Source: Tribonema minus
Taxonomy: Eukaryota; Sar; Xanthophyceae; Tribonematales; Tribonemataceae
DNA length: 64,000 nucleotides
Assembly: GCA_017506865.1 (NCBI GenBank)
Contig: JAFCMP010000524.1
Span: 310,001-374,000, forward strand
Direction: 5' to 3'
Shown here piece by piece: positions 26,190-63,600 of this stretch. Each line of letters begins with the position of its first letter. The stretch's first letter is position 1. The notes under the pieces are model-generated. The model was not told the DNA's origin. It was given only the letters and a program-made list of their open reading frames with translations, and ran no database searches. Made by a program: the position numbers and the translations under genes.

Positions 26190-26450
26190 AGGCCACCACT
26201 GCTCAGCAACCCCCAGCACCTGAGCACTGCTCATACACCTGAGCCATGCCGCAGCAGCAATGCTCAGCGTCTCGAGCACCTGAGCAATGCCACAGTAGCA
26301 ACGCTCAGCGTCTCGAGCACCTGAGCGATGCCACAGCAGCAACGCTCAGCGCCTTGAGCAGCTGAGCCATGCCACACCAGCAACGCTCAGCACCTGAGTG
26401 ATGCCACACGGCAGCAACACTCAGCACATCGTGCACCTGAGCCAAGCGCC
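26190..26450. repeat. Minisatellite, about six units of about 45 bp
   Basis: Units share GAGCACCTGAGC and ATGCCACA(C)CAGCAACGCTCAGC. Units vary in length. It lies just beyond the 3' end of the MYND gene. Confidence 0.8.
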
Positions 26451-28578: not shown

Positions 28579-28930
28579 GCGGCGCTTGAGCTGGGGCGCA
28601 GATGTGGCGTGCAAGTTGGTTTGACGGTGTTAAAGATGGTGGAATGATGGAGCTTGTGGTAAAGGGAGCTGCATATGTATGCATTCAAGCTAGACCTTGC
28701 GGTCTTTGTTCTGGTGGCGCTTGAGCTGGGGCGCAGAGGTAGCTTGCAAATTGGTTGAAGGTGTCAGACTGGTAAAATCAAGCTGGTGCCGAAGGAATTT
28801 CCGTCGTCATGCAGTTGAGTGTGATGGTATGGGTGTGTGTTTTTTGTTTATAAATCAAGTCTCCACGCGGTCCTTGTTCTGGTGGCGCTTGAGCTGGGGC
28901 GCAGAGGTGGCGTGCAGATTGTTTGGCAGC
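28560..28930 (-). repeat. Acceptor-junction copies before the MYND exon
   Basis: Three copies (starting near 28566, 28687 and 28864 on plus coordinates) of a segment that on the minus strand reads GCCCCAGCTCAAGCGCCACC and AACAAGGACCGC, encoding LKRHQNKDR. Only the copy nearest the MYND exon continues into it, and that copy has TAG in place of CAG. Confidence 0.8.
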
Positions 28931-29041
28931 GCTGAAGGTAAAAGGATAAAGTGCGGCGGTTAAGGGAGCTGCAAATCTATTCAAGAGATTGAGCTGCTTG
29001 TGTGAAAAGAGTGTAGAGGAGTGCGGCACACGTGTGTACAA

Positions 29042-35700: not shown

Positions 35701-35926
35701 ACAGCTGTTGGAGGGGGTCCTGGGTCCGAAGGGGGGGTTCAAGCTGGTGGGTGCTCAGGTAGCGCCTCAGGAGTACTTGAGCAATCCGCTGACGGAAGCT
35801 GTCGGTTCCGATGTGCAGTTTCTGCTGCACTTTTCGGATTTGGTGGATGGGCGCTACAGGCTGCTGCACTTCCGACGGCAACCGAGCGCTCATGCAGCAG
35901 CGTCGTCCGAGCCTGCGGCACCCTGA
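29791..35926 (+). CDS. Ankyrin-repeat / METTL21-FAM86-type protein methyltransferase fusion
   Basis: Complete 7-exon gene of 596 codons: 29791-29858, 30571-30732, 31894-31990, 32859-32921, 33290-33343, 33997-34231, 34815-35926; every junction is GT-AG and in phase. Start ATG sits in TTGCAATGGCG. Residues about 14-148 form ankyrin repeats ('NTALHMACANGHVEVVEALC', 'NYPLHWAIQGRHLACVQALF', 'NEFGQSAISEAFNAQNSDIV'). An acidic linker follows. From about residue 227 comes a Rossmann-fold SAM methyltransferase of the Methyltransf_16 kind: 'TGLGIWGSSLVMARWL', motif I 'VVELGAGCGVAGL' (258-270), 'MTDLNEATLDNLRHN', 'ALDWSDP', 'LLGCDLVYHKES' and 'GGSLLLVSP'. About 130 residues rich in Ser, Pro, Ala and Thr interrupt the fold after the third strand. 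Relatives methylate lysines on chaperones and translation factors; the ankyrin part probably picks the substrate (inference). Ends in TGA. Confidence 0.9.
31377..31760 (+). repeat. Tandem repeat in intron 2 of the ankyrin-methyltransferase gene
   Basis: Two units about 235 bp apart share GCGCACGCCAGGTCTGCTGC, GTGTCATCCTGCGCCAA and GCATGGTGT. A third, partial match lies near 31720-31750. No exon recognised in them. Confidence 0.7.
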
Positions 35927-42009: not shown

Positions 42010-45000
42010 ATGCATAGGCGGCGGAAGGGAACGCTCAACCATCTGAGCGGAGAGTCACTTGAGTAAGTTACTTTTGTCGTTGAACCGGGGGTATGGCGAT
42101 GGCGATGGTGGGCTGCGGCATCTTAGCTAAGCCGAGGCGCTGCAGCATTGGTTTTTAATGTTTGCTGTAATGAGCAAAGCAAGAGAGTCACAACACGGCC
42201 GGTGAGCTGTTGCGTGGCCAGCAATAGTTGCTGCTCAGTTGGGATTACATGCCAATACCTGCCAGGTCCGGCGGCGATGCAGCATCAGCAGATGCACCTA
42301 CAGCAGGAGAAGCAGCAAGCAGGCCGCATGTCAGGAGTCCAACTGCAGTGCCTCATGGTCTCCACCAGGAAAGGGTGGCCAGGAGATTGGCAGCTCGCTC
42401 AATGACTCCGATCCGGGGAGGTACAGCAACAACACTATTCATCACTTGATCTAGATTGAGCCGTACAAACGGAGTGGTCTGATACGATCTGCTGGTATGA
42501 ACCTGCGAAAGGGACGCTGGCAGTAGGGTGTCATGACTCATCAGTCCATTGCTTCATTTGCCCTCAACTGTTTCTCACCGTTGATGAATTAGATGAATCA
42601 GTTGGGATGACACAAGACAAATGAGTTCCATCACCCAACAAAGAGCGTCACAGAGCATTCGCTGTCATTTTGCATGTAGGAGCAGGCTGCCAACCTGCAG
42701 AGTCAATCGTATGCGCAGGCACTTCCCAATAATCTAACCGATGCCCAATTCACTGTCGCAGCAATTGTGTTGGTCATCGCATTGGCTCAGTAGTGACCTT
42801 GCTCATTCTCTGCGTTGCTGGCTTGCTCTCAAGGTGCGGCCGCTCAAGGCCAGGGAGGGAGGCTGCCTATTAACACTGGCGCAGGTATCATAGCAGCCCG
42901 CCTTAGAGGCGCCTCGCCCCCAGCACAGGTGCGGTGCAAGTAATATTCGTGGCGTCAATCACATCTGAATCACAAAACGATGCTGATGTTCCTGCTGCAC
43001 ACTTGGTGCCAACTCTGCTGACTGCCGCTATAAGCGTACAATTTGTTATGTATGGTTTCACGCCTCTTCAGCACGTCTGTGTAGCTGACTGCGGTGGACA
43101 GGACAGAGGGCACTATATGCGTTGTTAATATTGCACGCACGCACGAAAAACAACGCACCCGAGGCACTGCAGCAATTGTGTCTTGTGCATGTGGTACATC
43201 GAGGCGTGTATGTATGGTTGTGAGCCAAGTGTGGATTCTCGCCTCGTTTGATGAGTACAAGTCACCTGTGTGCGGCATCTCCTCTCATTGATTGAAGACC
43301 TTCAGTCGAGTACATCAGCCCTGCAACAAAAGCAGCTGTACTTTGACCAACCCTCTTCTCGTCATTTACAATGAAATTCATGATTGTTAATTTCATGAAT
43401 GCAGGGGCAAGCGCAGCAGCGCTCGAGCCGGACGAGCAGCCGCAGCAGCAGCGTGAGCGGGAGCAGCCATGCGGAGAGGGAAGCAGCAGCGGGGTTGGGG
43501 CGGGAAGGAGCGGGCGCACTAGGTTAGCTAACCCTACACTATACCCTAACCCTAACCCTTACCCTCATGGGACCAACGGTGCACCAAATTAACGAACCGA
43601 AGGAGCGGTTGCACCAGGTTAGCTAACTCCAACCCTGACACAGAAGTATTTTGACTACTGTGGATATGATAGCACTGTTTGACTCGTGGCCGAGGACTGC
43701 AGCAGCGGCGAACACGGTCACTGGTGGAAGGCACTTGTGGCTAACCGCACTTTGTCAACTAGAGCTCTACGATCTCTTGATTCGTTTCCACTATACCCTA
43801 ATCCTGATGGGACTAGCAGGCGCAGCAGGTGAGTTGGCAGTGGCGCCTGGTGTGCTGGAAAGCTTTGGTAAAGTTGCTGCAGAGTTGAGCCGTGGCGCAG
43901 TGTCAGTGATTGCACAGCACAATTCACAGGCATGTCACACATGCGGCTTCAGTTGAAGTTCATTATCTAGCGTAATCATCGCGGCACGTTAGCGTGGCAT
44001 ACTCTGTATCACTTCTGGTGGCTCTCGTGCATCGTCGAAACCCTCAGGTGAGGCGCGATGCACTTAGGGTTTGGAGTAGGGTTAGTCACCAGCTGTGAGC
44101 TGCACGTTCTCATAGCGAATATAATATCCACTGTTCAGTTCCGCAAGAGAGTCACGCTACATAACCTCAGCCCTAGCCCTATCCCTTCTACAGAGGCTTG
44201 TCAATGGCTGCAGCGCGGTGACATGGCACTGACGCATGCATCTGTATATGTATGAGAAAGGCACACGACAGCAAAGGTCTGTCATTATAGCTGCCTCATG
44301 ACAGTGCCACGGCTAATATAAGTATTTGCTGCTTCATGCGGCCAGGCGCTTTATAGTATTCACCAGCTCTACAAGTTTCCACATGGTTTCTCCAGTTGTT
44401 ACTAACAGCCAAGAGTGGTGCGCAAACGAGGCACTTCGTGTTCAATCGAGCGACCCTGGTTCTTCAAGCACGCGCACATTGCTCACTACTGAGCAATGGT
44501 GTCAAGGCAGTTGCACTGCGCCCGGAAGTGCATGTGGATGAGTCATTGCTGACTGACCTGATCACAACGATGACGTTGCGCCTGCTGCAAGCACTGCAAC
44601 AAATGGTGCAACAGCAACAACAACAGCTGCGGCGCAGCTGGTAACTTCAACTGCAACAACAGCAACAACAACTGGTAACTTCAACCGAACCCATGTCCTC
44701 CATGAGATTGAAATCAGAGTTTCTATTTTAATACAAAAAATAGGTGATGCTCATACTTTCACCACGCCTAGGAAGGTCAAGCAGGCGAGAGCTGTGCTCT
44801 GGGAAAGGTCCGGCGCCATAACGTTGGAGTTGAAGTTAGTTGATGCTCACATTCCCCTGGTGGCTTTTGGAGTTGTTGAAGCCAGCAGGTGAGGCGCGAT
44901 GCACTAGGGCTAGGACGAGGGTTAGTCACCAGTTGTGCGCTGCACGTTGTCCGATATGATATTAACTCCGCCGTTCTGACCCGCAGAAGAGTGCTCTGTG

Positions 45001-48000
45001 GTCACGCTTCGTGACCCCAACCGTAGCCCTAACCCTTGTACAGGGGGGGCTTGTCAGCAGCGCGATGAGTTGGCACTGATGCTAGCAAGCAGGCGAGGGC
45101 TCTGCTCCCTGAAACGTCCATTGCCACGATGTTGAAGTAAGCCAATGCTCACATTTTGAACGATGATTTGACCAATTCCTCTTACTTGCACTTGCAGGTC
45201 GCAGCGAGCGCCCCCTCACGCCCGATCGACCCGTATCAGAAAGGAAAGGGGGACAGAAGGGCGGAGCACTGTCACCCCTGAGCGACACCCCTTCCTCACC
45301 CGGAGGTAGGATACACTTGAGGTAGAATAAATGTTGAAGTAGTATAATGCTTGCAGTATGATAAACACCTGAAGTAGGGTATACACTTGAGTTCTTTGCA
45401 CGTCTCCATCGTGTGGCAGGTCACAATGGCCCCACGTGCTCTCACAGCTGTCATTTCCATATGGCAGCCACAACGGCTGTTGAGAGGTGCAGAATCGCTG
45501 TGTCGGTGGCTCACTTCAAGCGCTTGCCAGTGTATTGATTTTGCAGCTCAGCGGTGCATCATTGTGTCGTGAATTGCTATGCTGGTGCTGCCTCACCACA
45601 GGGGGAATTGTGTGCTGACACAGGGCCAGTGCTGTCTGACGCAACGCACTGGAAGCATGTACCGAATGATGCCTCACATTTATTTTAAAATGATATATGT
45701 GTTGGTGTGTGTGTGCGGAACATCACTGGTTTTGGCAGTTTCTGCATGTGATGCTCCTGTCATTGTCATCCACACTGTACTGGCAAAACCCATTCCCTGG
45801 AGCATCGACTGTCATCATTACCTGAACCCAATTGTCATGCACATTTGCATGCCATTGTCATCCTTGTGCCATTGCCAATGCCAGTCTTCAGCAGCCCCAC
45901 ATCCACTGCCGCGCTGCTGCTGCTGCCGCTGCTGCTGCTGCTGCCGCTGCGGGCAGTTGGAGCTCCTGGCTGACACCATTCCTTGGACAATTGCTGATCA
46001 TCATTACCTGAAGCCACTTCTCATGCACATTTGCATGTCGTTGTCATCTCATGAACGTTTGCCATTCTTGTACTAATGTCAGCCTTCAGCAGCCCCACAT
46101 CCACTGCGGCGCTGCTTGGGAGGCGCAGTGGCGGAGCTGCTGCTGCTGCCGCAGTTGGCAGTCGAACCTCTGGACTGAGGGAGAGCGCCTTGGGAGTACT
46201 TAAAAGGCTCAGTGGCGGGGATGGTGAGATTGGGGTGGTCTCATCTGATGCTAAAGCTCACTCTATGTGGCCCTCTATATTATATGATGAAGGGTAGACC
46301 AGGGCAGATCTGTAGTGAACTTTTTGTGTGGCTCTTTTGGTTCATCAGCGAGGGGTAGACCAGGCAGATCTGTGGTGAGCATCATACGTGACAGATCATT
46401 TGCCATTACAGTGCGCCACCAATCTTGCTAAGCAGATCATGACGGCGCGTTGCTATTCCTTCTGTACCTTCACAACTGGCTTTAAAGTCAACTGGCATGC
46501 ACAGTTCGTATGCACAGCTTATCGAATATGTTGCTGGTCATTGTGACCCCGCACAGATCCGCGAGTCCTCTCAAGCAGGCAATACTTTCTTGCCTTTTTC
46601 CACAGTCAATTCCACGCACTCTGCCTCTCCATAAGAGCTACGCATGGAGCCATTTACATGCTCAGCTACGCATGGAGCCATTTACATGCTCACACACACA
46701 CACCAACACGCACCCAACACCCCCGGGCTGCAGGCAGTGATGACACCCCCCCTCCCTCCCCCCCCCCACTCCCCCCTCAACCCCCACACCTTTGGCCTGC
46801 AGACAACGACGACAAGCCGCGCACCTCATGGGGATCCCCTGGCCGCATCAAAGAGAGCCCCTCGCCACGCCGGCGCGGCAGCAGCAGAGCTGCGCTGCTC
46901 AGCGACCACTCGCCCCGACAGTCCGGGGTCCCCGCCGCCTACCTCGAGGAGGACGCTCCCGCGCTTGAAGATGAAGTTGGTGACGCCGCGCCAGCAGTTA
47001 CGCCAGCGGCAGTTACAGCATCGGCAGTCACGCACGGAGGGGCGCGCAGCAGTGCTCAGCAAGCCGCCGCTGCTGCCGAAGTTGAAGATGAAGATCTGGA
47101 AGCTGCAGGAGGGGGTCTACCGCCACGGTGGGGGTCCCCTCCCCCCTGGGGGGCGCGAGAGCCAATAGGAAGCGGGGTTCCGGCGTCTCTCACGGGGCTA
47201 GAGGCGCTTCGGGCTGCTGCCATCCATTCGGCACGAATGAAGGCGGCGAAGGGCAGGGATGGCGACTGGTCCGACGTTGCACCGGAAGGAGAAAATGGTG
47301 CAAGAGGAGGGGAGAGGCGTTTTGGGGGGGGTGCTGCGCATGAGGGGGAGGCGAAAAGGGGGGTGGGGAGGGATGGTGCGGGGGCGCCAGGTGTCAAGTT
47401 TGTGGAGCCGGAGGAGACAGAGGTGACCCTAGCCATTATCTAACCCTATCCCTACCTCTAGCCCTGACATTACTTCTGGAGTGATTACCTGGCATTACGT
47501 TGTTGTGTGATTAGCGGACGTGTTGTCGGTTGAGGCAGGGAGGGGGGGCGTTGCTGCAACGAGTGTCCGATATTCCCATCGCAATCTCTACGCATGTAGG
47601 GCACGGTAGTGCTTCTGTCGGTTGAAGTCCCTGCTTGCACCATCAGGTCGATCTCTTGTCCGGATGCACCATTTCTCAGCTGTCTCTTGCAGCCCGTGCA
47701 GTGGTACCTCCAGCAGCAAGGTTTAAAAAGTATCTGCCATTTTCTGAAAATGTAAGGGGCCAGAACATGGACTGATATGTACCTACCTTGCTGCGTTCAT
47801 TTTCCTCACGCAGACACGTTATCGGATGAACCAATGTGAATGTAGATGTAATGTGCCACTTAGAGTATGAGCAGGGCTCGAGGTGTCAGAAACAGGCAGG
47901 AGTGTATAGGTGTGCTTGAGGGCAATTAAGTCGCCCTGACTCGACCACCAATTCATCTGATCTGCGGCATATGCATGGGTGTGTTGCCAGGCTGAGAAGC

Positions 48001-51000
48001 AGTGAATGACAACCATCTTGCTGCAGACTGAGGTTGACTCACCAGGGTAGGCAAGTACTAGAAAATCAGCGTTGCCACGGCACAATGTAATTGCCATGTA
48101 ATGCGCACACGCCTCTGTATCTATCAAGGCATCTGCTGCATCTGCTACACACACAATTGGTGAGGTCGAGCCCCACATCTGGTGAGGTCAAGCACGGGTT
48201 CCCCATTGAAGAAAGGAGAGTCACAGACCTTGATGTTGAGCGCCATTTACATCACGCCCTGATGTGAGTGCGGCATTGTATACTGCCTCTCCGGCACCAA
48301 CGGTCGTTGCCGAAGTTACAGTGAACAGGCGTAACTGTGCCACACTGTTGCAATGACAACAGCGCCGCCCGCTACTGAAGCTTCTGTCCAGCGCTCTCCC
48401 ATTGTCTTACCAGTGCAAAATCTCGCTTCGACTCACTGTCCCTGCGCCTCACACGTACGTTATCGTGCAGGCCGGCGGCAGGCCCGTCTCCAGGGACTAC
48501 GTGCACAACAGCATCACACGCGCGGCACACCCACACTCGCTCGCCACCCTTGCAGCAAATGTGCGCGGTGTTCTGAAGCTTCTGTCCAGCGCTCTCTCCC
48601 ATTGTCTTACCACTGCAAAACTCACCTCCACTCACAGTCCGCGCATTGCGAACGTCACCACGCAGGCCGGCGGCAGGCCCGTCTCCATGGGCTACGTCCG
48701 CAACAGCATCACGCGCGCCGCGCACCAGCACGCGCTCGCCACCCTCGCAGCAGCGGCTCAGCAGGGACCCCCCCCTCCCCCCCTCAACCCCGCTTCCGCC
48801 CCCCGACTCCAAGGCGACGCGTCTACCCCCCTAGGGGGCGGCGAGAGGCCAACTTCGAGAGCGGCGGCGGGGGGCGTCAACTTCAACAACAGCAGCGGCG
48901 CCAACCTCAACATGAGGAAGAGCGTAGCAGGGACGGCGAGGCCGGAGTCCAGGCGCCGCAGCCGCCACCGCCGCCCCGTTACCATCACCGCTGCCGCTGG
49001 CGCGAGCGCTGCTGGCGAGGTGGCTGCAGTGCTCAGGGGGAGGGAGGGAGGAGGGGGCGGGGGGCGGGGGGAAAGGGGGGTGTTGGCGGACGGGGGAGAG
49101 GGCGGTGCGGTACGGCGGCCGAGACGCCAGGTGCGTGGGAAATATCGGTACTTTAGCTACATGGGCCGATGGGTTCTGTGAAGGTTGGGTAGTGTAATGT
49201 CAGTGCTGGGTGAAATTGAAGTGGGGTTCAGAGGGGGACAGTAGGGTTGAGCTTCGGCTTAGGTTAAGCTGTGGGGTGGTACTGGCGGTGCTTTTCGGAA
49301 CGTTCAAAGTGGTATGCATCCCATTGAGAGGAAAGTATTGGTTTGTGGCATCTGTGATTTACGGCTAATTTACTGGGGGGAAGCAGGCAGGCATGTATGT
49401 TTAGGGGCGAGGTCATCTGAGGCTGGTGATGATGACCAGGTTCCCGAGGAATGAAAAGGAAGTGGCTCCACTGCGGACAGTGCTTGATAGGGTTGGGTTA
49501 GGGCTAGGGTCAGGCACCAGAATAGAGCTGTGAGGCAATGTGTGGTCGCATACCACCGCTTTCAGCCTATGATTTGTGAGCTGCTATGTGGTTTCTGATA
49601 TATTTTACGGTACGCATGCATCGGCAACCTCAAGCCCACTGACCCGATTGCATGCCATTGCTGACAGAACACAACTTGATCTTCGACTTTGATTAGTGCT
49701 ATCAAAAACGGAGGTGCACATTTGTCACCTCGAACCGCAGCGGTGTGTAGGCAGCTCATGCCAACGCGCCGCACAAAAGAACAAGATCCGCAACACCATG
49801 TACTTTGCAGCCTACCGTATATGGACAAGCACCATGGCGACCATGATTTCAATTTAGCACCTGCATACATTGTTGCTCGCCGCTTCTGCTGCTGGCCGTG
49901 TCATTGACTACTTGCGCATGGCTCACTGCTACATGTACATGTTCTGAACATGTGCACAGGCCTGAAGCGGCAACATGCGGCAGCCTCCCCCTCCCGGTGG
50001 TGCGCCGGATGGGGCGGCGCCTGATGCTAATGTAGCACCTGCGTACATCGTTGCTCGCCGCTTCTGCTGCTGGCCTCGTCCTAACCCTAACCCTAACTCG
50101 TATCCTGGCTGCTACCTTTCTGAAAACGTCACCAGGCTTCAAGCGTCAACATGCGGCAGCCTCCCCCTGATGCTGCGCCGGAAGGGGCGGCGCCTGATGC
50201 GGTGAGTTATTGAAGTCAAAGTTGAAGTGCAGACTTGCGAGGCCAGCCTTGTGGGCATAGATGTACAGGCCTTTTGGTGCTGATGCTTCAGGTCGGATCT
50301 TTGCAAACTGCTAAATGGGCTTTCTTGTTGAGCTGCATGACGATGCCTCACAAGAGGTACAAGAGTAGTAGATGCTCTGATTGCCTTTCCTTCTTGTTGA
50401 GCTTCCCTCGCCTCTGGATACATTGTGCAGCTGGCTCATCTCATGGTCCATTTTGTGCAAGTTTTGTCCCTCCGCTGTTGCCTGCTTCTGAAGGAACAAG
50501 GGCAGGGGAGTCCGTCACCCCCTTGCACCCTTTCACTGTGACCTGTTCCACCCCGACCCCACACAAATGCCATTAGCGAACCTCTGAAAGTACCTCCCAA
50601 CTCTGCGTAACTCTCTCTTGAAGATGCTCACCGCCCCCGCCCCCCTCCTTCCCCCCCCCATACCTGCGCCTCCATAGAACGATGGAGAAGAGAGCCACAC
50701 CCCCCCTGGGCCCCGCTTCGATGTCGATCGCACATTCCACGATACTGCAAGGGGGCGACTCTCCGATCGCATGCGCCTCGACGCCGACAACCGGCAACGG
50801 CGCCGAGACAGAGACATGTACGACTGGGCGCAGAGGGAGGGACAGTACGAGTTCGCGCTGGTGATGAGAGTGGATGACAGGTAACAGCGTTTGTTCATGG
50901 ATTTCTTCCTTCGTGATGTTTTTAAATACTATGAATTTGTGTTGACAAAAGTACATACTTCGAAGTCTAATTCTGAAGTTACAGTGAATTTGTTTAATAT

Positions 51001-54000
51001 TTTTATTTGAAGGTTTGTCCAGAGTGTAGCTGTGCGATGAGACTTCATCCGTGTAGAGGAAGGGGCAGTATGAGTTCGCGCTGGTGATGAGAGTGGACGA
51101 CAGGTGACAGCATTCATTCATGAATTTCGCTTCTTTCAAAAATTTGTTCTACGTAGCGGTCGTCCAGATTGTAGCTCTGTGATGAGTCTTCATGGCCATT
51201 CGTGCAGAGGGAGGGGCAATACAACTTTTTGCTCTGGTCATGATAGTGAATGACAGGTGCAGCGTCCATTCGTGATGTCCGCTTGTCCAGAATGTAGCTT
51301 TGTGGTGAGCCTTCGTGGCCATTCAGCAGAGGGAGGCAGTACGAGTTCGCGCTGGTGATGAGGGTAGATGACAGGTACAGCGTTCATTCATGAATTTCGC
51401 TTCCTTCTTTGGTGATTTTTTAGTTGCTGAGGGTTTGTCCAGAATGTATCTTTGAAATTGAGTCACCGTGGCCATTCACGCAGAGGGAGGGGCAGTACAA
51501 CTTTTTGCGCTGGTCAGGATAGTGGATGACAAGTATAGCATTCATTTATCATGTTTGCTCTTTGTTGATGATCTTCGTTTCGCTCATAGTTACCCAAAGT
51601 GTTCTCTGTGTAGTGAGCCATCATGGCGAATCTCGGTATTGTAGCAGCAGGGACATGAGGGTGGTCGAAGGTCAGACAGGTGCTGCGTTTCATTCATGGT
51701 GCTGCGTTTCACTCATGAATTCCACAGACATCATTTTGATCAATTTTTTCTGTATTGTGACTGCGCCCATGACGCGCTGATGCTATGTATGTACCGTGGC
51801 ATTGGGTGACACTGCTTCCAGTGGCATGCGTGATCCGCGCAATATATCGCTTGCACATCGTTTTTGGCCGGAATCGAGCACGTTACAAGATACATCCCCC
51901 ATTTTGGCGCCTGCATCAGGTACCGCACAGCTGCCAATATGATGGAAATGGCACTGGAGCAGCAGCAGCGGTTGCAGATACAGAACAACATACCATCGGA
52001 AGAATCCACTCCCATGGCCACACCCTACAACCAGCAACAGCAAGACGACGGCGACAGAGGCAGCAGCCCGCAGCAAATGTGAGTCAGAACACCATGTGAT
52101 TTGAGCGGTGCCACTGCGTCGACTTGCAAACCGGGGCTGCCATGGGGCAGGGCTACGCGCTGGTTTGCTCTTTGAAGGGTGCAGGCGGGCGGCTGCACCA
52201 TGAATGAATGGTGCAGGCAGGCGCCTGAATGGTGCAGGCAGGTGACTGCACAATTAGGACAGCGCAGTACCCGTACAGCTCAGCACAGTACTGTGTGGTA
52301 CAGTTTGGTAAAAAAAAGTCTCCGTGCATGATCTTGTTGCAGTACGGCGCAGTTCATGTACAGTACAGCATAGTACACTTTATCTCGTTGCGCACTGTGA
52401 GTCCAGCCCTCATTCAGCATGTTGCCTGAATTGGCCAGAGTCACCACGGTCGTGACATGCTTGTCGCACTGCAATCAGCTGATGCGGCCACCGTGGCAGG
52501 CAGGCAACTGCTCTCGGATACCCTTTTTCAACGACTCTGGATGCAATACTTATTTGCCACATGTGATGTGACAGCGAGGTTCGGCAATCTAGTCGCACAT
52601 GCGTTGACTTTGTGAGTTGCTTGCTGCTACTGCTGATGCCTCGATCACTGCTGCTTGTGCGCACGTAGCGAAATTGTGGTGCAGGCTACCGCTGTCCCTG
52701 AGGCTCATCACTCTGGCTACACCATCTATCACAACAGCGACTGGCATGATAGCATGCAGCCGCCATCGCTGCCACCGCCGCCGCCACCAGTACCTCCGCC
52801 GCCGCCGCCACCTCCGCTGAATGTCGAGGAATACAGGTAATGGTTCAAGTTGGTGATTGCTACGCACTGGTGTGCGCACTGCGCGCTATGAATGTGTTCT
52901 TTGCTAGCCTACCAGCTAGTTCTCTGCTACAGCTGTGTGCCCAGTCTTGCTGGTCGATGCCAAGCAAGGAGTGATGCACATGCTGCTGCCTCTCCCAGAC
53001 TCTTCGCGAAAACTTCACACTCTTTAAGGCCCGTTTCCTGTTTGTGTGCGTTTAGTGCGTGTATTGAAGTTCTCGTTATACTTTGATGAGCGTCACGCAG
53101 CCGTGCAGTGTGAGCTCACATCCGCCTCAATGGCTGAGGGACACAATGCGAATCGGTACTAAGCAAAAAAAGAACATATTCGCTGCATGCATGATCTGTA
53201 CTTGCAGCTGCGCTATCTTGTATGACGCTTCCACATACCAGGCACTTTCATCATTTTGTTTTGATGTGCTGGGTAATACGCCTTCCCACAGTCCCTACAT
53301 TTCGTGAAAACGATGATACTGCAACCTGCAGTACAAGTTCAGCTGGGGTGTGCAAAAGGACTTTACAGCCCAAATTTTGCACATATTTCTGTTGCCAGCG
53401 CACGGAGCAGCAATGTTGCAACGTTTCAGGCGGACACGACTCCATGCTCACCACTTGACACCACCATCGCTGACAAGTACAATCTCGACGTGCACACGGT
53501 CGCCGTGAATCCATGATTCACAACAGTTCACACACGTCCATCGCTGCTGCACCTTTTGCCCGTGCCGTGAGCAGCAGCGTCGCAGTGGTTTAGGCAGACA
53601 CGTCTCCACGCTCACCATGCCTTGACACCATGCCTTGTCAGCACCATTGCTGACAAGTGCAATCTCAACGTGTACACAGCCGCCACAACAGCTCACACGC
53701 GTCCAATGCGTGCTGCACGCGTTGCTCATGCCGTGAGCAGCAGCGTTGCAGTGGTTCAGGCGGACAACGGCCCTGCTTCGCCGCCTCCGCTGCCCCCGAA
53801 GCCCACCGGCCTGAGGAACAGCATGCGGTCGCTGAGCACTGTCAGCAGCCCACCCTCATCGCCACCGCAGCGGTGTCACAGGTGATGACATATCGGTAGT
53901 AGTCCTGTGCACCGATTGGAGGTAGTATTGGCACGCACCGTGGCCTTTGACCCACATTTTTACATAGGGTTTAGTGCGAGTATTGGGGGTGATGGCATAC

Positions 54001-57000
54001 GATCGCTGAGCACTGACATGTTAGGTACTTGAAGTAGAGTTTTTGTGGACTGATTGAGAGACTCATTGTGGCCGTTTGATTGGTGGGCTGCTTTATCGCC
54101 ACCTCAGCAGGCGATCCCACCGGTCGTCTTATTTTAAGAGGAAGATTTATGTATACGTATTAGGGGTCACTATCAGAAGCATGGTGGCGGGTGAGATTGA
54201 CCCACCACTTATGTATGTATATATGTATGAGTGGCGCGTGCACAGGTATCACGTACTTAAGTGCTGAAAGCCGCATCAGAAGCGGCAGAACTTGCGTGCG
54301 CAATCAGGGCTGACGTCATTTTTGTATAAAGAAAGGACGGCACTTTTCGAGTTCCGCAGTGTGAGTTTTCGCGTGTGTCACCTCTTGTGATCACATGAAG
54401 GTCCTGCCTGAAGTGGCGCACGCAGTCGAGTACAGTGTGCAATGAGGTGCGGGACTCAGGCAGGCCATTCAAAATTGTGAAGCAGTCACGATCGCAGGAT
54501 ATCACACTGTGCCTGCATCAGTGCCTATACAAAGCGGCGCTTTAAGTCTTCTTCAAGGGGTTGAACTGCACATGCACTTTCTTTCGCCTGCTGCCTTCAC
54601 CAGTGCAATCGTTGTGAGCTGTAGCCCACTCGTACAAGAGTCGCTGTTGCATTGCAAATGGTGACATGCTTGTCATGGCACTGCAGTCGCACAACACACT
54701 TCGCGCTGCACCAGGCCACGTAGACATCGTATGCTCTCCCTGTACGTACTGACATGAGTGAGTGAGAGAGAGAGTGTGTGTGTGTGTGAGTGCAAGTGCG
54801 CTTATTGTTGCGGCCATTGAGTGTGTGTGCTGTCGTTGAGTGTGTGTGCACATGCGAACGCGCGTTGTGTGTTTGCATGTGCGCTTGTTGTCACTGTCGT
54901 TGCAGGCGCGCGCAGACATAGGGTATGTATGCATGTACGGGTCCGTCTGCGGAACCCTAAACCCTCACAATAGTCCATGTGGTCATTGAAATGTGAGTAC
55001 GCGTGCTTGTTGTCGCTGTCTTTGCAGGCGCACGCAATCATAGGGTATGCATGTGTGTATGGGTCCGTCTGCAGACCCCTAGATCCCCACATTGCTCTAT
55101 TTGGACACTCACATGTGTGTGCATGTATGCTTGGGTTGTTATTGCAGGTGCGCCAGACAGGGTATGCATTTATGTATGGGTCCGTCTGTGATCCCTATAA
55201 CCTCACAACAGAACATGTGAATAATGAAATGTGTGTGCGTGCGCTTTTTGTTGCTGCCGTTGCAGGCGCGCGCAGACGTCGCTGCCCGTGCGTGTGCGCA
55301 CGGACAGCGTCCTCGGCCGCGTGCAGCAGCTGCAGCAGCAGATCAACAGCCAGCAGGCGCAGCTGCAGCAGCTCACCGAGCAGCAGGCGCAGCAGCAGCA
55401 GCAGGTGGTGATGATCAGCAGCAGCCACAACCCGCCGCCCTTCAACCCCGCGGCGGGCTTCAGCAAGGCCAGCAGCGATATGAGCAACAGACACGCACGC
55501 AGCAGCCAGAGCGCCATTTCTCTAGGCATCACTGTCGATACGCGGCACGCGCCCTCCGCACCCCCCGCTTCTGCCCCTCCTCCTCCGCCTTCCTCTCCTC
55601 TTCCTGCTGCTGCTGCTGCCGCGGCGGCGGCGGCAGCGGCGGCGGCGGCGGCGGCGACGGAGCAGCCTACGCCTGTTCCGCCCTCAAACCGCAGCATGTC
55701 TACAAAGAAGGTATATCCGTCTACTTCAAATTCAAGTATTCACAACACCTAGACTTGCAGCTTTGTGTGACATCAGATTGTGGCAACAGATACCTGCATA
55801 TGCAGCGCGATCACGCACCAGTTGCGTGCGTCATCGTCAAGCCACTGATGCGCCTGTGGTTCAGGACCTTCATCGGGAACTTTGACTGTGCGCGATGCCC
55901 TTGCTTTGGATGGAGGGCACAACTGTGACGCGTGCGGTGTGAAGCACCTTGTGATCACTGTGATCCATGCTGCACCCTGATCAATTGGTTGACCTTCCTA
56001 ATTGGTGACCATGCACCTCAAACGATACAGGTCCTCGGTGTCACTGCTCTGTCAGGGATAGGGTTAGGGTTAGAAGTGTGACTCTTCAGCCCTCACTTCA
56101 ACTGCTGAGTGAGTGCATGTTGCTGCTGTACGTTGCCGTTTTGCTTTACAGGCTGTAGGAACACCGCGGACGCATGCAGGCGCATCAGCTGCTGCGCCAG
56201 CTACCCCCCAAAGCGTGCGTCACAACAGGTATGGGTATACATACATGCTCTGTCAAAAGTTCAAGTTTGCCACGCAAAAAGGCATTTTGGCATGGTAATG
56301 ATCATATCAACAAGGCGCTGCTGTATTGTGGGTATGGTCACCTGCGTCTGAGCTCTGGAGTTGCGTGACCGTGCGCGAGCTTTCAGACAGAAAAATGAAG
56401 CGATGGAAAGCTCATGAAGGTGCGGACCTTGTGAGACTTGTCTTGCAAAAAACCGTTGCCCTCTGCATGCGCTCAGGGATCTGTCAAGAGTGCCATGTCA
56501 GCATATTTCAATCGCAAATGCCCCTCAGTCACACACTTCACACTTGAAGTAAGAGTGCATGGTGCCGCGTACCTGTTCATCACGTCGCCCGACACAATGT
56601 TTCGAAGACTGCCCACTTCAGCATATCTCAATAAGCCCTCAGTCACACACTTCATACTTGATGTATGGCGCTGTATTGTTTGCTCATCAGGTCGCCCGGC
56701 ACGATGTTGCTAAGACTGCCCATGTCAGCATAGCTCACAAAGCCCTCAGGCACATACTTCGTACTTGAAGTACAGTCGCATGGTGCTGCGTTACCTTCGC
56801 ACCAGACATTGTTGATTTATGAGGTTTGACCCCCGAGTAGAGTTGCCGGGGTGACTTGAGGAATCCGAGTCGATTTGTCACCGAGTAAACTCCTTTTGCC
56901 AAACCGACCGAGTCATGATTAATGTGGTCAGCCAAGAAGCGAGTCGATTTTTACTCGGACCCCCGAGTAAATGACCAGCACCTCGCCAGGCGAGTAATGG

Positions 57001-57013
57001 CGAGTAATTTGGC

Positions 57014-57068
<55 letters not shown>

Positions 57069-60000
57069 TTCTATACCGATTTTTACGATTGCATTGCAAT
57101 GTCCATCGTCGTCTCGGAGTCCTTTCTTGAGTCGTGCCTCAAGCAGAAAGCTGCACTTCTGAGGCACAGGCTATTGCTGGTTTTGTCAAACTTGATGTGA
57201 CGAATGATGTCGCGCTTCATGCCAAGCTTTTATGCTGCAGCAGCTTACCGGAGCCTCCCAAGAGCTTCTTCTCTTCCGTGAGATGCTCGTCCTCGACCTC
57301 CGAAGCATTGGTTGTTGCATGACTGAGTACACTAAACTCCATGCACGTGCATCCCCTTCATGAGGGGGCTTAAGTAGAGCATGTGGCTGCAGGCAGTGGG
57401 GTGGGAACTCCAGCTCTTCCACAACTAGTAGTACTGCAGCTTCTGCTGCTTCACAGCCTGGCATGGCGTATTTTTTGTCAGCGCAACCAGCCCCCCCAAA
57501 AGTCGGTCCGACTTTGGAGGAATAAAAGGATTCGACTCGACCTTTCGGAACTTCCTGTCGTTCGGCTTTCGGAGGCCCCATCACCCACACATGTGTAGCT
57601 TTGAAAAGAATCGGTGTTAGGACACCACACCGAGTAATATTTTGTAGCATCTCTGGCAGACCGAGTGATTTATCACCGATTTTAATCGGTGTGTCCGAGA
57701 CCCCGAGTTGCGAGTAAAACTCGGTCAAAAATCGATTCGCGACTCGGTCTGTCCAATAAATCGGCAATGTCTGCTTCGCACGGCACAACTGCCCATTTCA
57801 GCATATCTCAATATCTCAATCTCAAAGCCCTCAGCCACACACTTCAGACTTGAAGTACAATCACACGGTGGTGTGCTATGTACCTCTTTATCAGGTCGCC
57901 TGGCACGCCCAGTGAAGGTGCATCTGGCGGCGGTCCGGCGCGCGCCAACATTGCCAGTCGCCGCTTCACAGGGCAGCAGCAGCAGCAGCAGCCCATTAGC
58001 CTCGTGCGTGGGGGGCGAGAGGTTGCGGTGAGTCTCTGTTGCAGTTTGAAGTCAGCAGTTGAGTTTGGACATGCAGCCACTCACAGCCTGTTGGTCACGC
58101 CCAGGCGGGCGCGAGGTGGCGGTAAATCAACGTCAAAGTTTGAAGTAAGAGCTTGGGGTTATAAACGGCGGCATGCCGTGCGCCACTGGAAGAAGTGCAT
58201 TGGTACTGCCTGTGTGTGTCAACGCTCAGTCGCCGATCTTCTAGGCAGCAAGTTTTTGGGGCGCTTCTGCTGCGATGTTTGCGACTGCATGGGTGCGCAT
58301 CATGGGCTTGTGCTGATTCAAATGTGGTGAACAAGTCAGTGCCTGCAGACAGTCACAGGCGGCCCGTTGAAAAGTACACCTCAAACCCCTAACTTGAACT
58401 TCAAGTAGGAGCGTCACACCTGGTGATCCCGCCTGCCACGTGTTCACCTTGTAACAATTGCCGTGGGCTAGCTCAGTGCTGCTGCGTGAACTTCAAGTAG
58501 GAGCGTCACACCTGGTGATCCCGCCTGCCACGCGTTGTAACCAGTGCTGTGGGCTACCTCGGTGCTACTGCCAAGAGCTGCCACAGACTACAAGCGCTGT
58601 CGCAGTGCAGAGCACGATGGAGAAACTACGGACGTGAACCTTGAACTTTGCCGGACGCTCATCGCCGTGACGGCAGCAGGGCTCAGCTCAGCTTGTCATC
58701 GCATATTCAACAGAAGTGACGATTCCACTCTTGCACCACGCGTTTTATGTCCTGCATATTCACTTCTTTACGCTGTGCACGTTTTGCTGCTGCGGCGCTG
58801 TTGCTGTGACCGGTGCAGCTGCTGCGAAGGCGCAGACGCCACCTGGCACTGACGGAAGAGGTGCTGAAGGCAGGCATTGTGGTGCGCAGGCACAGGTGCG
58901 TGCCGTTTCTTGTTGCATTTGCTGATTTTCACCATGTTAGTTGTAAACAAACACCACACTTGAGCAGCACTTCAAAGGGCTTTAGCATGCGCGCGCCCTT
59001 TATTGTTGCATGTGCTCATTGTCAGCATTCAGCTGCAAACCTTCGCCACAGCTGGAGTGGCACGTCAAGAGGTTTACGCATAGCAATGAAGTGGAGGCTC
59101 TGACACGCAAGTTGCTTTCACAGATTGGATCATGGTGCTGCCACTGTCGTACAGTTGGTTCAGCTGCCATGGCCCCCATCTGACTGATACATTGTGTTAA
59201 GCTAATAGCGGTATGTGGGCGACCAGGACACTGCTTCATTCACCGTGGCATGCTTGAGGGTATATCCTACTTCCTAGTACACAGGAAGCTGAGAGTATGA
59301 CAACTGCCGATTCTTGAAAGTTATGCTGGAAGGGTGCGCATGCGCAGCCTGCTCGCCTAAGCAAGCTCGTAGGGCCTTCAGGGTGTCCCTTCATGAAGAC
59401 CGCACAGCTGAGAACTTTCAACGCACCCAATTTGTGTCCACAGTCACACTGCCCTGCCCTTGTGCTCTACCCTCATCCTCGACGTTCTGCGCTCACCTAA
59501 CTTCAACCCTACTTGAGTGTTCACGCCCTACCGCAAGAGCGATTACATCCTGCTCACCAGCCTGAATAATACGATCTCAGCCACGCTGCACTCACCTAAC
59601 TTCAACCCTACTTGTGCGCGCTCAGGCCCTACCGCAAGAGCAATTATTTCCTGCTCACCAGCCTGAATAATTTAATCCCAGCCGCACTGTGCTGACCTTA
59701 ACCCTACTTGTGTGTGCTGAAGCCCTGCCGCAAGGGCAGTACATCCTGTTCACGCCAGCCTGGCTAATCTCATCTCAGCCGCACTGCACTCACCTAACTT
59801 CAACCCTACTTGTGCGTGCTCAGGCCCTACCGCAAGCGCGAGCACATCCTGCTCACCAGCCCCCGGATAACCCCATCCTACCCGCACTGCTGCGCTTACC
59901 CAACTTCAACCCTACTTGTGTGCGCTCAGGCCCTACCGCAAGAGCGAGCACATCCTGCTCACCAGCCCGGACGGCTGCCTGACGTTCATGTGGCGCACCA

Positions 60001-63000
60001 TCAATAGCGCATCAACTGCTGCTCATGACTATGGCGTTCCCGCATACGACGCGCGAGCAACCGCACAGCAGCAGCAGCAGCAGCAAGCGGGCAGTGCGTG
60101 GCGCGAGGGCCGCCTCGGTGAGTCACTTTTGAAGTTTTGGCACAGCGCCGTTCAGCAGTGTTGCTTACTCATTGACTCATTGCGGGAATTCGGACTGCCC
60201 CCGCATGAGGGAGGTCACTCTTGAAGTTGGGGACAGTGACGGCACCTGACAGCAATCGCTCAGTCACTGAGAGAAAATACTCACTCCGCACAAGAAGAGT
60301 GAGTCACCCTTGAGGTTGTGGTTGTGCAGCATGAGGAAGTACAGCCTGTGCTTCTGACACATGCTGGCTGGTGTGCAGTAGACGAAAGGCGCTGGGTGCA
60401 GAGAGTTGTTGGCTGCAAATGGCCATCGGCTTGTGCTCCACAGGCAGTACGAGTATTTTGTGTAATATGAGTACATGATGCTGTTCGCATCGGGCATTGG
60501 GGACTTGCTTGTCCGACAGCAGCCAGTCAGCGCCAGCGTCATGAGAGTCGCGCAATGGTCAATTGTTGCAACATACTCTTGGCTGCTACACACATGGTCG
60601 CAGCCAGCAGTGCGATGCATGCTATTGCAGCCAACTTCAAGGCGGGCTGGAGTGCTGCTATGACACCAGCTTTGTACCGGCATGCACGCGTTGTAGTGTA
60701 CCGTTATGTTTTGAAAGGTAAATTATTGTCAGCCGATGCTTGAGCATATCAGATATGCTGGGTGCCTGACCCTAACCCTTACCCTTGAGCGCTTACCATG
60801 CGAAACAACAGTTGCAATCATGCACCCCACACAGCACAACCACGTGCGATGCCCATTTCCACTTCAACATTCTTGCAAGACACCAGTAAGTTATCACTAC
60901 AAAATCAACAACACATAATTTCACGTCTACTGTTCACGTGCGCTTCCTCGTGAAAGCGGTTCGCAGCGCTCGCGCACACCATGACGCGACGCATGCGCTG
61001 CAATCCTCTTCACTCCTCTCGCAAGAAAGAACAATCCTTGTGCGCATTGACGTTTCACTACTTCACTGTCCCTCTACAAATGTGTTGCATGCACTGCCAT
61101 GCAGGGAGAGCACTGCAACGGCTGCAGACGTACTTTGACCCTACGCCTAACCCCAATACAGGGGATTCAGCACTTCAAGTATCTATCTTCGAATGTGATG
61201 TGCCATGCAGGCACAGCTCTGCAGCGTCTGCAGACGTACGTTTACTCTACCGTTAACCCTAACACTGGCGACTCAGCACTTCAGTCTTGAAGTTTATCCA
61301 CAAATGTGACGTGCCATGCAGGCGGAGCGCTGCATCGGCTGCATGCGCTGCCATTCACTCTTACACTGCCATTCACTTCACTCCTCTCGCGTGGAAGAAT
61401 AATCACTGTGTGCACTGGCGTTTCAATGCTTCACTGTTTCTCTACAAAAGCGACGTACGTGCCTCTACAATGTGCCTCTACAAATGTGACGTGCCATACA
61501 GGCGGAGCGCTGCAGCGGCTGCAGACGTACGTCAACGGCGTCTCGCACTTCCCCGCCGCGAGCCTCATGTACGTGCTCAGGGCTACGGACCTCGATCCCG
61601 ACAACGCCGGCCTGTTTGGGACGCGCACGCTCAGGTGACGCACCGATGTGCACTTCAACTCAACTTCAACTTCAATTTGGGGTGTGACGCGCGCCCGCGC
61701 ACCCGTTGATGCTGTTTGCGAGGTGCACGGGGTACAGGGAGGTCCGCTGTGGCGTGCCGCAGGTGCTCGCAGCGTGTGCTGTTTGTGAGTGCACGGGGTA
61801 TGATGAGGTTTTGCTGTGGCGTGCCACAGGTGCTTGCAGTGTGTGCTGCAGTGGAGGTGTTGACGCGTTTTGATACGGTCTTGACTACTTCTCAGGATTG
61901 ACGACAAGCGCGCAACAACGTACCGCATGGCTAACTTGCTCCATGTTTCTAGGTTTTGTCAAGCGTCGGCACGATGTGTAGGTTTGCAATGTACAAGTAC
62001 GGAACTTTGACAGTACATACTGCAAAGGGTGACATTTTACTTTAAGATGTGAACTTTGAACGTGAAACTGTCACAAAGCACAGCATGTCTTGAGTCATTG
62101 CCTCACTATCACAGCGGTTCTCGCTGCTGTAGAGTGACAGTTCATTGATGCGACTATGAGGCAGACTTCAAAGTGTCACACTGCACAGTGCCTTTTGTGT
62201 GCCACTGTCAGAGCAATTCATTTCATGGCGGATTTAGAGTCTGACAACGCATAACGACGGCGCCATGGGCGGGGTTCTTTGCAACATGCTTTTCTTTACG
62301 CAGCTCTGTTTGCACGGGCAGTGAGCTTGCTGACCAGCGGCAAGCTTATGTGCGATAGTATACATTTATAAAATCGCCATCGACGGCATCCAAAGGCAAC
62401 AATGACTGCCATGCATACTGTCGCATGCGTTGTGTTGGCTTCCCCTCAGTGCTTTGTTGACCATCTGGATTCCTTTCCAGCTAATTCAGGCTGACTGTCA
62501 TCCGCACGTTGGCTGCTTTTGTGTTCTGTCAGGCAATCGGGGGACATCCCACACAGGGGGAGGACATTCAGCTGCACTTCAACTACAACGTGAAGTGTGA
62601 ACCTCAACCAGGGCAGCTAACCCTAATTGTGCAACAGCGCCATATCGCAACAGCCACCAAGTCCAATGTAGGCTGACTGTCCTACGCACATTGTCCTCCG
62701 CACGTTGTCTGCTTTGGTGTGCTGCCAGGCAATCGGGCGACATACCGCACAGGGGGAGGACGTTTAGCGTGCTGTACAAGGGGGAGGGCGCCTTGGGTGG
62801 CGACCCGCTGCTATCGCTTGACCTGGAGTGCGATGATGACAAGGTGACTGAGCAATGCACCACGCTACTGTCGACTTTGCGCTCATGCATACTTCAATCA
62901 GATAAAAGCGGATAACAGCGGGCGTCCAATGTACTCTGTGCAAAAATTATCATCTCTACTCACTTCTTGACAATACATGCTTAATAATTGCTCATTCAGA

Positions 63001-63600
63001 AAAAGGGCGTGATCCGAGGGTCAGTGCGATTGCCAACCTCACTGTTGCAGTGCCAGCGAAGCCTGCACACAGAGTGGCGTAATGCGGACTGGACTGGCTT
63101 GCCTGACACGTGATGATATCAATCATGACAATGACGGTGATAATGAAAATGTATGCACATGCCAGCTGTATCGGAACTTGCAGCGATGACCTTGTAACGC
63201 ATGACATGTGCCGATAATGATAATTCCAACGATGACAGCAACGACGCATGCACACTGCAGCTGTGTCGCAACTGGCAATGGTGGCAATGGTATGCATTTG
63301 ACACGTCCGGTTGCTGTCGCAGTTTTGGGAAACAGCGTTGTGCAAAACATGTCCTCACAACAAAAACACCTTGTTGCATCGGTGTCCCGCAGCTCTACGC
63401 AGACCTCTACCTGGGCTTCTGTCTGGTGCTGGAACGCGAACAAGCCAAAGCACAGGCAGCGGAACCGACAGCAGAGGAGGGGGCCCTAGCGGGGGGGGCT
63501 GGTCCTCCTCAGGGGGGCAGTGCTGCAGTGGCAGGCGCAAGGGGGGGGAGGGGCAGCCTGGCTCAGCGGGTCGACTTTGCAAAACGCCAGGACATCACGC
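42010..63600 (+). CDS. Large low-complexity protein with a PH-like domain (partial, continues past the window)
   Basis: Twenty exons in continuous phase give 1255 codons: 42010-42062, 42266-42420, 43405-43522, 45198-45305, 46090-46223, 46803-47422, 48666-49130, 50136-50201, 50678-50880, 51920-52078, 52669-52836, 53741-53881, 55266-55710, 56152-56228, 57895-58027, 58819-58895, 59930-60117, 61502-61634, 62729-62843, 63393-63600. The start 'MHRRRKGTLNHLSGESL' ends at a consensus donor GTAAGT; the frame is also open upstream to an ATG at 41692. Residues 1-1015 are mostly disordered (Ser/Arg, Pro, Gln, Ala runs), with a glutamine-rich coiled coil near 805-840. Residues about 1016-1202 look like a PH domain split by a Gln insert: 'VLKAGIVVRRHRPYRKSEHI', 'LLTSPDGCLTFMWRT', 'HRGRTFSVLYKG', 'LSLDLECDDD'. 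The core resembles PH domains of phospholipase C and plant PH-RCC1 proteins, which bind phosphoinositides. The full function cannot be given without the C-terminus. Confidence 0.78.
43660..43790 (+). repeat. Dispersed 131-bp repeat with a conserved open frame, copy 2
   Basis: Partner of 28208-28338; here in intron 3 of the PH-domain gene, in sense orientation. Frame stays open and shares GGRH and LELYD with copy 1. Confidence 0.65.
44020..45080 (+). repeat. Two 200-bp copies about 850 bp apart in intron 3 of the PH-domain gene
   Basis: Blocks at 44045-44235 and 44890-45085 share CAGGTGAGGCGCGATGCAC, GGGTTAGTCACCAG, GCTGCACGTT and GGCTTGTCA. Each begins with a donor-like CAG|GTGAGG. Confidence 0.75.
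45785..46105 (+). repeat. Acceptor-junction copy before exon 5 of the PH-domain gene
   Basis: Two units about 190 bp apart share CATTACCTGAA, CATGCACATTTGCATG, CTTCAG|CAGCCCCACATCC. Only the second continues into the exon starting at 46090; the first runs into CTG repeats. Confidence 0.8.
48374..48760 (+). repeat. Exon-start duplication before exon 7 of the PH-domain gene
   Basis: A unit of about 197 bp occurs twice: intron end plus 'AGGRPVS', then 'NSITRAAH' and 'LATLAA'. Copy 1 (acceptor near 48470) has RDYVH where copy 2 has MGYVR. Copy 2 continues into the full 465-bp exon; copy 1 does not. Confidence 0.85.
49856..50201 (+). repeat. Two copies of exon 8 and its upstream intron, PH-domain gene
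   Basis: A unit of about 177 bp: TAGCACCTGC, GCTCGCCGCTTCTGCTGCTGG, then CAACATGCGGCAGCCTCCCC. The second copy gives the in-phase exon 50136-50201; the first has an in-frame TGA after its acceptor and no donor. Confidence 0.8.
50826..51540 (+). repeat. Five donor-junction copies after exon 9 of the PH-domain gene
   Basis: The exon end (peptide 'REGQYEFALVMRVDDR') and donor recur near 50826, 51057, 51207, 51329 and 51481. Copies one, two and four keep QYEFALVMRVDD almost exactly; three and five are degenerate (CAACTTTTTGC). CAGCGTTCATTCATGAATTTCGCTTC is shared by the following intron parts. Confidence 0.85.
53395..53760 (+). repeat. Three acceptor-junction copies before exon 12 of the PH-domain gene
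   Basis: GAGCAG|CA(A/G)(T/C)GT(T/C)GCA, then TTCAGGCGGACA and CACCA(T/C)(C/T)GCTGACAAGT, recur near 53410, 53575 and 53735, spaced about 160 bp. The last opens the exon starting at 53741; copy two has TAG in place of CAG. Confidence 0.8.
54900..55275 (+). repeat. Four acceptor-junction copies before exon 13 of the PH-domain gene
   Basis: TTGCAG|GCGCGCGCAGAC or close variants occur at about 54906, 55029, 55149 and 55266, pitch about 120 bp, each decoy followed by GGGTATGCATGTGTGTATGG-like sequence and GGGTCCGTCTG. The fourth opens the coiled-coil exon. Confidence 0.85.
56560..57900 (+). repeat. Acceptor-junction copies before exon 15 of the PH-domain gene, split by a transposon
   Basis: A unit of about 120 bp with CATCAG|GTCGCCCGGCACG, ACTGCCCATTTCAGCATA and ACTTGAAGTACA occurs near 56575 and 56690, then in a third unit that the hAT-like element interrupts, then at the true acceptor (57894). 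Confidence 0.8.
56803..57773. mobile_element. hAT-like non-autonomous DNA transposon (971 bp)
   Basis: The ends are imperfect inverted repeats: CAGACATTGTTGATTTAT on the left and the complement of CAGACATTGCCGATTTAT on the right. The 8-bp duplication CTTCGCAC flanks it exactly at 56795-56802 and 57774-57781. Both ends are packed with the subterminal motif CCGAGT/ACTCGG, many copies each, like hAT transposase-binding repeats. A (CA)n run lies at about 57014-57066. No transposase seen. Confidence 0.82.
58395..58570 (+). repeat. Two tandem 85-bp units in intron 15 of the PH-domain gene
   Basis: GAACTTCAAGTAGGAGCGTC, ACACCTGGTGATCCCGCCTG and CTGTGGGCTA(G/C)CTC are shared by units at about 58398 and 58487. 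Confidence 0.85.
59500..59975 (+). repeat. Five acceptor-junction copies before exon 17 of the PH-domain gene
   Basis: Units of about 102 bp: AACTTCAACCCTACTTGTG, GCTCAG|GCCCTACCGCAAG, AGC..CATCCTGCTCACCAGCC, then degenerate spacer. Exon starts sit near 59525, 59625, 59721, 59822 and 59930. Only the last continues past CCCGGACGGC into an open exon; the others run into TAA or TAAT within about 40 bp. Confidence 0.9.
61095..61530 (+). repeat. Four acceptor-junction copies before exon 18 of the PH-domain gene
   Basis: TGCCAT(G/A)CAG|GCGGAGCGCTGC and CGGCTGCAGACGTAC, or close variants, occur near 61105, 61210, 61320 and 61502. The fourth opens the true exon. Confidence 0.85.
62525..62765 (+). 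repeat. Acceptor-junction copy before exon 19 of the PH-domain gene
   Basis: CAG|GCAATCGGG(G/C)GACAT and CACAGGGGGAGGAC occur at about 62533 and 62729. The second opens the exon; the first soon diverges. Confidence 0.85.

Follow-up and report, generated by a model that had tools for sequence, protein, structure and literature searches.

Splice junctions copied in tandem within introns of at least three genes in a 64-kb window of Tribonema minus DNA

The stretch of Tribonema minus DNA analyzed here, 64 kb in length and referred to as the window, raises the question of how introns come to hold rows of copies of their own splice junctions and whether such copies arise preferentially at junctions or have a function. 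A sequence-only reading had described these rows at ten junctions of one gene, which we rebuilt exon by exon and then checked for phase; the positions of the features are collected in Table 1. The last exon ends at a donor site at 63600, and therefore the gene runs on past this position. Nineteen introns had been claimed for the gene. However, exons 11 and 12 can be joined in frame only through an additional exon, probably 53399-53504, which is skipped in the exon numbers used here and brings the number of exons to 21. A small gene finder called this probable exon only at a low penalty. At a higher penalty, it called 15 of the 20 numbered exons exactly, gave different starts for exons 6, 7, 10, and 12, missed exon 1, added two short exons, and left 53399-53504 uncalled. 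It also indicated genes elsewhere in the window: a lectin-like one (2105-3934), an ankyrin-methyltransferase one (29791-35926), and, on the minus strand, one with a MYND finger at about 26.5-28.6 kb. Since the gene finder was trained on the main gene and two frames of the same window, it offers no independent proof of the exons, unlike the continuity of phase and the Pfam matches, which do. The label "PH-domain" that had been attached to the gene found no support: Pfam returned no family at E values up to 10 for two C-terminal pieces of the protein, and no PDB chain matched one piece.

Self-BLAST of the window yielded 94 plus-strand pairs within 1500 bp. By self-BLAST and by searches anchored at splice sites, copies were detected at nine of the ten junctions named earlier, namely, the acceptors of exons 7, 8, 12, 13, 15, 17, 18, and 19 and the donor of exon 9. 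The array described for exon 5 was not recovered, with no copy in either search. In alignments centered on the junctions, every clear copy shows the acceptor and the exon start. The main-gene arrays have a pitch of about 95-225 bp, and one to four clear decoys stand beside the real copy. The exon 12 and 15 arrays gave 0 under the spanning rule of the anchored search because their copies reach just 7-12 nt into the exon; both were found by self-BLAST and by the junction-centered alignments. The exon 12 array extends only 7 nt into the exon, and its first copy lies inside the probable exon 53399-53504.

The copied segments vary from junction to junction. The unit at exon 8 consists of the intron tail and practically the entire 66-nt exon, and the copies of the exon 9 donor retain GT in 4/4 cases, one of them as AA/GT. 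A short donor-spanning pair at exon 4, absent from the list in the earlier reading, relates 43504-43532 to 43599-43627 (90%, E 0.007, anchored score 43). The exon 18 array adjoins a 368-bp repeat (60998-61080 and 61366-61448), and the likeness within the exon 19 pair is limited to about 77 nt around the junction. An insert of about 0.95 kb (56798-57778, in intron 14) interrupts the exon 15 array; its inverted ends are imperfect, and it is possibly a non-autonomous element.

Table 1. Positions of genes, exons, and repeat arrays in the window
Feature	Position	Strand	Detail
Main multi-exon gene	42010-63600	+	single open reading frame; phases match once 53399-53504 is included
Main gene, exons 1-5	42010-42062, 42266-42420, 42834-42928, 43405-43522, 45198-45305	+	
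Main gene, exons 6-9	46803-47422, 48666-49130, 50136-50201, 50678-50880	+	
Main gene, exons 10-11	51920-52078, 52669-52836	+	
Main gene, probable extra exon	53399-53504	+	between exons 11 and 12
Main gene, exons 12-15	53760-53881, 55266-55710, 56152-56228, 57895-58027	+	
Main gene, exons 16-20	58819-58895, 59930-60117, 61502-61634, 62729-62843, 63393-63600	+	
Donor-spanning short pair, exon 4	43504-43627	+	29 nt, pitch 95
Acceptor-spanning array, exon 7	48375-48752	+	2 copies, pitch 195-198
Acceptor-spanning array, exon 8	49851-50200	+	2 copies, pitch 178
Donor-spanning array, exon 9	50829-51575	+	real site and 4 copies
Acceptor-spanning array, exon 12	53389-53766	+	2 decoys: 53430, 53594
Acceptor-spanning array, exon 13	54868-55277	+	3 clear decoys: 54906, 55028, 55148
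Acceptor-spanning array, exon 15	56486-57906	+	decoys 56584, 56691 and a partial copy
Acceptor-spanning array, exon 17	59487-59968	+	4 decoys, pitch about 100
Acceptor-spanning array, exon 18	61095-61532	+	3 decoys: 61105, 61211, 61322
Acceptor-spanning pair, exon 19	62496-62768	+	decoy 62533, pitch 196
Lectin_leg-like gene fragment	2105-3934	+	exons 2105-2222, 2972-3140, 3851-3934
Donor-spanning array, lectin-like exon 2105-2222	2190-2461	+	unit 60
Acceptor-spanning pair, lectin-like exon 2972	2781-3030	+	64 nt (-5 to +59), 92% alike
Acceptor-spanning array, lectin-like exon 3851	3481-3866	+	5 decoys with AG, unit about 58
MYND-finger gene	about 26-29 kb	-	called by gene finder; MYND clearly supported by Pfam
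Acceptor-spanning array, MYND-finger gene	28557-28983	-	copies at 28893, 28725
Donor-spanning array, MYND-finger gene	27043-27625	-	4 copies: 27564 (real end), 27446, 27233, 27093
Ankyrin and Methyltransf_16 gene	29791-35926	+	7 exons, 6 introns; clear Pfam support for ankyrin and methyltransferase
Telomere-like stretches	402-1305, 7848-7860, 43544-43550, 45027, 50085, 60770		

Chance similarity is excluded as a source of these copies, since none of 400 dinucleotide-shuffled targets reached a score of 30, compared with scores of 63-128 for the six passing acceptors. The copies differ from one another by 6-35% in the self-BLAST; because of this divergence an assembly error is unlikely, and an assembly artefact was rejected as an explanation.

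Junction arrays are present in at least three genes of the window: the main gene, a lectin-like gene, and a MYND-finger gene. Pfam support for the lectin-like gene is weak: a 38-aa piece matches PF03388 at E 0.0037, which does not reach the cut-off. The two copies at its exon 2972 are parted by 122 nt of unlike spacer, and the unit holds just 5 nt of intron tail. In the MYND-finger gene, the real acceptor lies approximately within 28575-28590. The finger itself (28575-28361, minus strand) matches with an E value of 8.9e-9 and contains an in-frame TGA mid-finger, indicating a pseudogene, a tiny intron, or a sequence error. The ankyrin-methyltransferase gene is the negative case, one gene of four, with no junction array at its 6 introns by self-BLAST and a single intronic repeat pair at 31388-31688. 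Local repeats cover 26% of the introns of the main gene, 46.5% of those of the lectin-like gene, and 4% of those of the methyltransferase gene; the cover outside the named genes and frames of the window is 8.5%. The window also contains a single frame with ankyrin-like repeats (37893-39253), in which 81-nt units are up to 82% alike at the DNA level and the coding sequence has grown in tandem and in frame.

We consider it probable that short local duplication, blind to junctions, together with neutral decay of the decoys, explains the arrays. Short duplications with units of about 60-200 bp, mostly head to tail, would hit genes often and regardless of junctions. A duplicated unit that straddles an exon-intron boundary would produce a copy bearing either an acceptor and exon start or an exon end and donor. 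The spliceosome would keep using the copy beside the exon body and the gene would survive; the outer copies would turn into intron and decay neutrally, leaving the intron longer by one unit, and repeated duplication would build arrays. Exon definition, in which the shortest acceptor-donor pair wins, would silence the decoys. The presumed real site lies nearest the exon body at acceptors and donors alike, which fits exon definition; had the first acceptor made strictly been the one used, the array-bearing genes would have been disrupted. The copies, their placement and divergence, and the lack of significant coding constraint on them are direct observations; we infer that the duplication is neutral, that its origin is of a repair type, and that exon definition is what silences the decoys. 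Repair of paired nicks with tandem doubling is known in plants and is a candidate origin of the duplications. Since tandem duplications that include the junction lie inside introns, these introns must have lengthened, and the earlier proposal of intron growth by junction-spanning tandem duplication is thus borne out in at least three genes of the window.

In order to assess placement, 20 arrays in three scored genes were listed by hand from the self-BLAST pairs, with overlapping pairs merged. The repeat at 60998-61448 was merged into the exon 18 array, and the insert was subtracted from the length of the exon 15 array. The set leaves out the repeats of the ankyrin-like frame at 37893-39253, repeat pairs outside the scored genes (5586-5698, 8080-8314, 9345-10651, 19141-19900, and 26223-26447), and the two arrays of the MYND-finger gene, which was not scored because a stop interrupts its frame within the finger. 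All counts come from this 64-kb window, with three genes supplying most of them. An acceptor is crossed by 10 arrays, a donor by 3, and neither by 7. Under a null in which arrays are dropped randomly on introns and may enter an exon by at most the unit length less 10 (exon integrity), 2.46, 2.43, and 15.11, respectively, are expected (p 3e-5 for acceptors and 0.45 for donors), and junctions are crossed by 13/20 arrays versus 4.9 expected. Under a circular-shift null, in which coverage is shifted round each gene and repeats may fall on exons, 8 acceptors are covered versus 5.1 expected (p 0.09) and 2 donors versus 5.1, giving 10 junctions versus 10.2. The two nulls disagree; whether junctions are in excess depends on the null chosen.

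Around acceptors, coverage by local repeats stays level between -300 and +5 (8/27 at -10, 9/27 at -1, and 8/27 at +5) and falls inside the exon (6/27 at +20 and 2/27 at +60), as expected if breakpoints ignore the junction and exons must stay whole. The 3' halves of introns are richer in repeats than the 5' halves (10 introns versus 5 of 27, with 1919 more covered bases; one-sided sign-flip p 0.035). The circular-shift and half-intron tests, like the donor-acceptor comparison described below, used 3853 as the start of a lectin-like exon that truly begins at 3851; in the exon-integrity test, the choice of start leaves the array class unchanged.

Alternatively, duplication may be targeted to or favored at acceptors, triggered by nicks, R-loops, or lariat-related repair at 3' intron ends, and introns would then grow mainly from those ends. 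The predominance of acceptor over donor arrays against nearly equal expectations argues for such targeting, as do the 3' bias and the copies scoring at least 44, which occur at 6/19 acceptors and 1/20 donors, versus 10% of 948 intron interior points when searching left and 14% when searching right. However, 10 versus 3 is by itself a weak contrast (two-sided binomial about 0.09), the circular shifts give only the modest acceptor excess and the donor deficit noted above, coverage shows no peak at the junction itself, and the data derive from a single window with three scored genes. We regard targeting as unlikely. We read the data as duplication without regard to the junction, possibly combined with some preference for 3' intron ends. 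The intron-only arrays (7/20) were counted in favor of blind duplication. Counted against it were the crossing of acceptors at four times expectation under exon integrity and the 3'-half excess, neither of which blind placement accounts for, the open decoys described below (3/10), and the pairs at 2781-3030 and 62496-62768, which have a non-contiguous copy-spacer-copy layout; the gene of four that lacks a junction array is a further point against it.

The state of the decoys bears on whether they are used. Each site was scored with a matrix derived from main-gene acceptors, minus the site being scored; two weak copies without AG in place (3500 and 54823), copies that stop short of the junction, and a distant donor copy in the lectin-like gene (near 2446) were left out. 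AG is kept in 20/23 scored decoy acceptors (20/25 with the two weak copies), and for 14 of these 20 the score equals or exceeds that of the real site; at exon 3851, up to five decoys outscore the real acceptor. Because decoys so often equal or exceed the real site, the choice between them must rest on position and not on site strength. Unpolarized differences by codon position total 32:22:65, a strong third-position bias. Changes private to decoys number 20:10:23 (p 0.08 for a third-position excess), so that coding constraint on the decoys is not significant, and changes common to all decoys, which belong to the real exon or to the stem branch, number 1:0:6. Arrays with a single decoy give 3:8:17, a count that cannot be polarized and could include constraint on the decoy; this count and the unpolarized total were also entered as points against blind duplication. 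These data fit decoys that drift and exons that are held, are compatible with some constraint on single decoys, and speak against a general function.

The earlier reading had stated that only the copy next to the real exon is open in phase. This does not hold for the nearest decoys of exons 7 (48471, 195 nt), 18 (61322, 180 nt), and 2972 (2786, 186 nt), which are in frame and stop-free. Such open nearest decoys number 3/10, against 0.75 expected with the exon portion taken as open (P 0.03), an excess that is suggestive only. It is conceivable that decoys are under selection as alternative acceptors, mini-exons, or splicing regulators of the real site. The stop-free in-frame extensions of exon 7, exon 18, and lectin-like exon 2972 would agree with this, as would the third-position excess in single-decoy arrays and the behavior of the gene finder, which at the higher penalty starts exon 7 from its upstream acceptor and at the low penalty calls copies of the exon 9 end (51059-51103 and 51327-51374) as exons. 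In contrast, the codon bias on the decoy branch falls short of significance, the retention of AG is close to that expected at an estimated 10-12% change per site, and in 18/23 scored decoys the phased reading runs into a stop ahead of the real exon, with 2 of the other 5 out of frame. Selection on the decoys appears improbable.

The earlier reading had also suggested that introns originate through such duplication. In the published form of this model, tandem duplication of an AGGT-containing exon segment gives rise to an intron (Rogers 1989; Hellsten 2011, for ATP2A1; both as cited in PMC3443670 and PMC4974935), and the arrays would be remains of that birth. As in the model, to the extent that these sources describe it, tandem duplication in or around exons yields copies of splice sites here, and exon-exon junctions read AG/G in 13/28 introns. 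However, the model duplicates exon sequence, and the donor and acceptor flanks of the same intron should then be alike; over 28 introns they score 14.36 on average, versus 14.68 for mismatched flanks, although likeness may have decayed. Moreover, the arrays repeat the intron tail and exon head of an acceptor that already existed. We consider such an origin very improbable. A dispersed element such as an introner or other mobile element was rejected because, on both strands of the window, every match to a junction unit lies within 1.5 kb of it, except for a GTGAGT-type simple repeat in the MYND-finger gene, and tandem exon duplication was rejected because, among 10 acceptor arrays, only the exon 8 unit covers a whole exon, its copy lacking GT at the matching end and meeting a stop.

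The closest known case to the arrays, as far as the parts of the literature drawn on here describe it, is a tandem duplication across an acceptor in the RdRp gene of potato (Ma, Lan, and Niu 2016, PMC4974935). There, too, the unit joins the 3' side of an intron to the 5' side of the downstream exon, acceptor signals included; units holding intron tail, AG, and exon start occur here in 10 arrays of two genes and in 1 more of a third. In potato, a single duplication in one gene reportedly created a new intron and an inserted piece of exon, whereas the extra copies described here appear to be plain intron, arrays reach up to six copies, and three genes of a single 64-kb window are affected. Within-gene duplications, some including whole introns, have been described as common (Gao and Lynch 2009, as cited in PMC4974935). 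Among the matches listed in our search, which comprised titles and abstract beginnings from a part of the literature with few subscription journals, no report of junction-spanning repeat arrays across many introns was found. Events of this type are known; what is unusual here is how densely they occur and that strong decoys stand in rows.

If the pattern is general, the arrays would be natural experiments on splice-site choice, with decoys in near-identical context and presumably one site used; exon definition could be examined in a protist or alga with no need to build constructs, and the arrays would provide a datable record of intron lengthening. A broader reading, which we put forward tentatively and hold to be doubtful, is that tandem duplication across acceptors could be a main engine of intron lengthening in this lineage, that rows of equal-strength decoys might be silenced only by exon definition, and that an occasional open in-frame decoy, such as those of exon 7, exon 18, and the lectin-like gene, would offer a ready-made protein extension.

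Several further features of the window were observed. Two colinear copies of a long segment, at 6004-15600 and 15647-22368, share pieces that are 66-90% alike. The first contains about 3.5 kb with reverse-transcriptase frames (10862-14356; RVT_1 match below the cut-off), which the second lacks at the corresponding place (21109 to 21123), as if this were an empty site. The heptamer ACTTCAA occurs 37 times on the whole window and its reverse complement TTGAAGT 30 times, versus about 4 expected for each, and of the 40 sites that fall in scored-gene introns, 11 are no more than 50 bases from a donor. Telomere-like stretches of short length also occur in introns and elsewhere; there are 13 occurrences of CCCTAACC and 7 of GGTTAGGG, versus about 1 expected for each. 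Finally, the region 39987-40232 holds a shortened 5S rRNA-like stretch (Rfam, 40.8 bits) beside a 173-bp piece that recurs on the other strand at 16537-16708 with 96.5% identity; together they are perhaps a young 5S-derived SINE.
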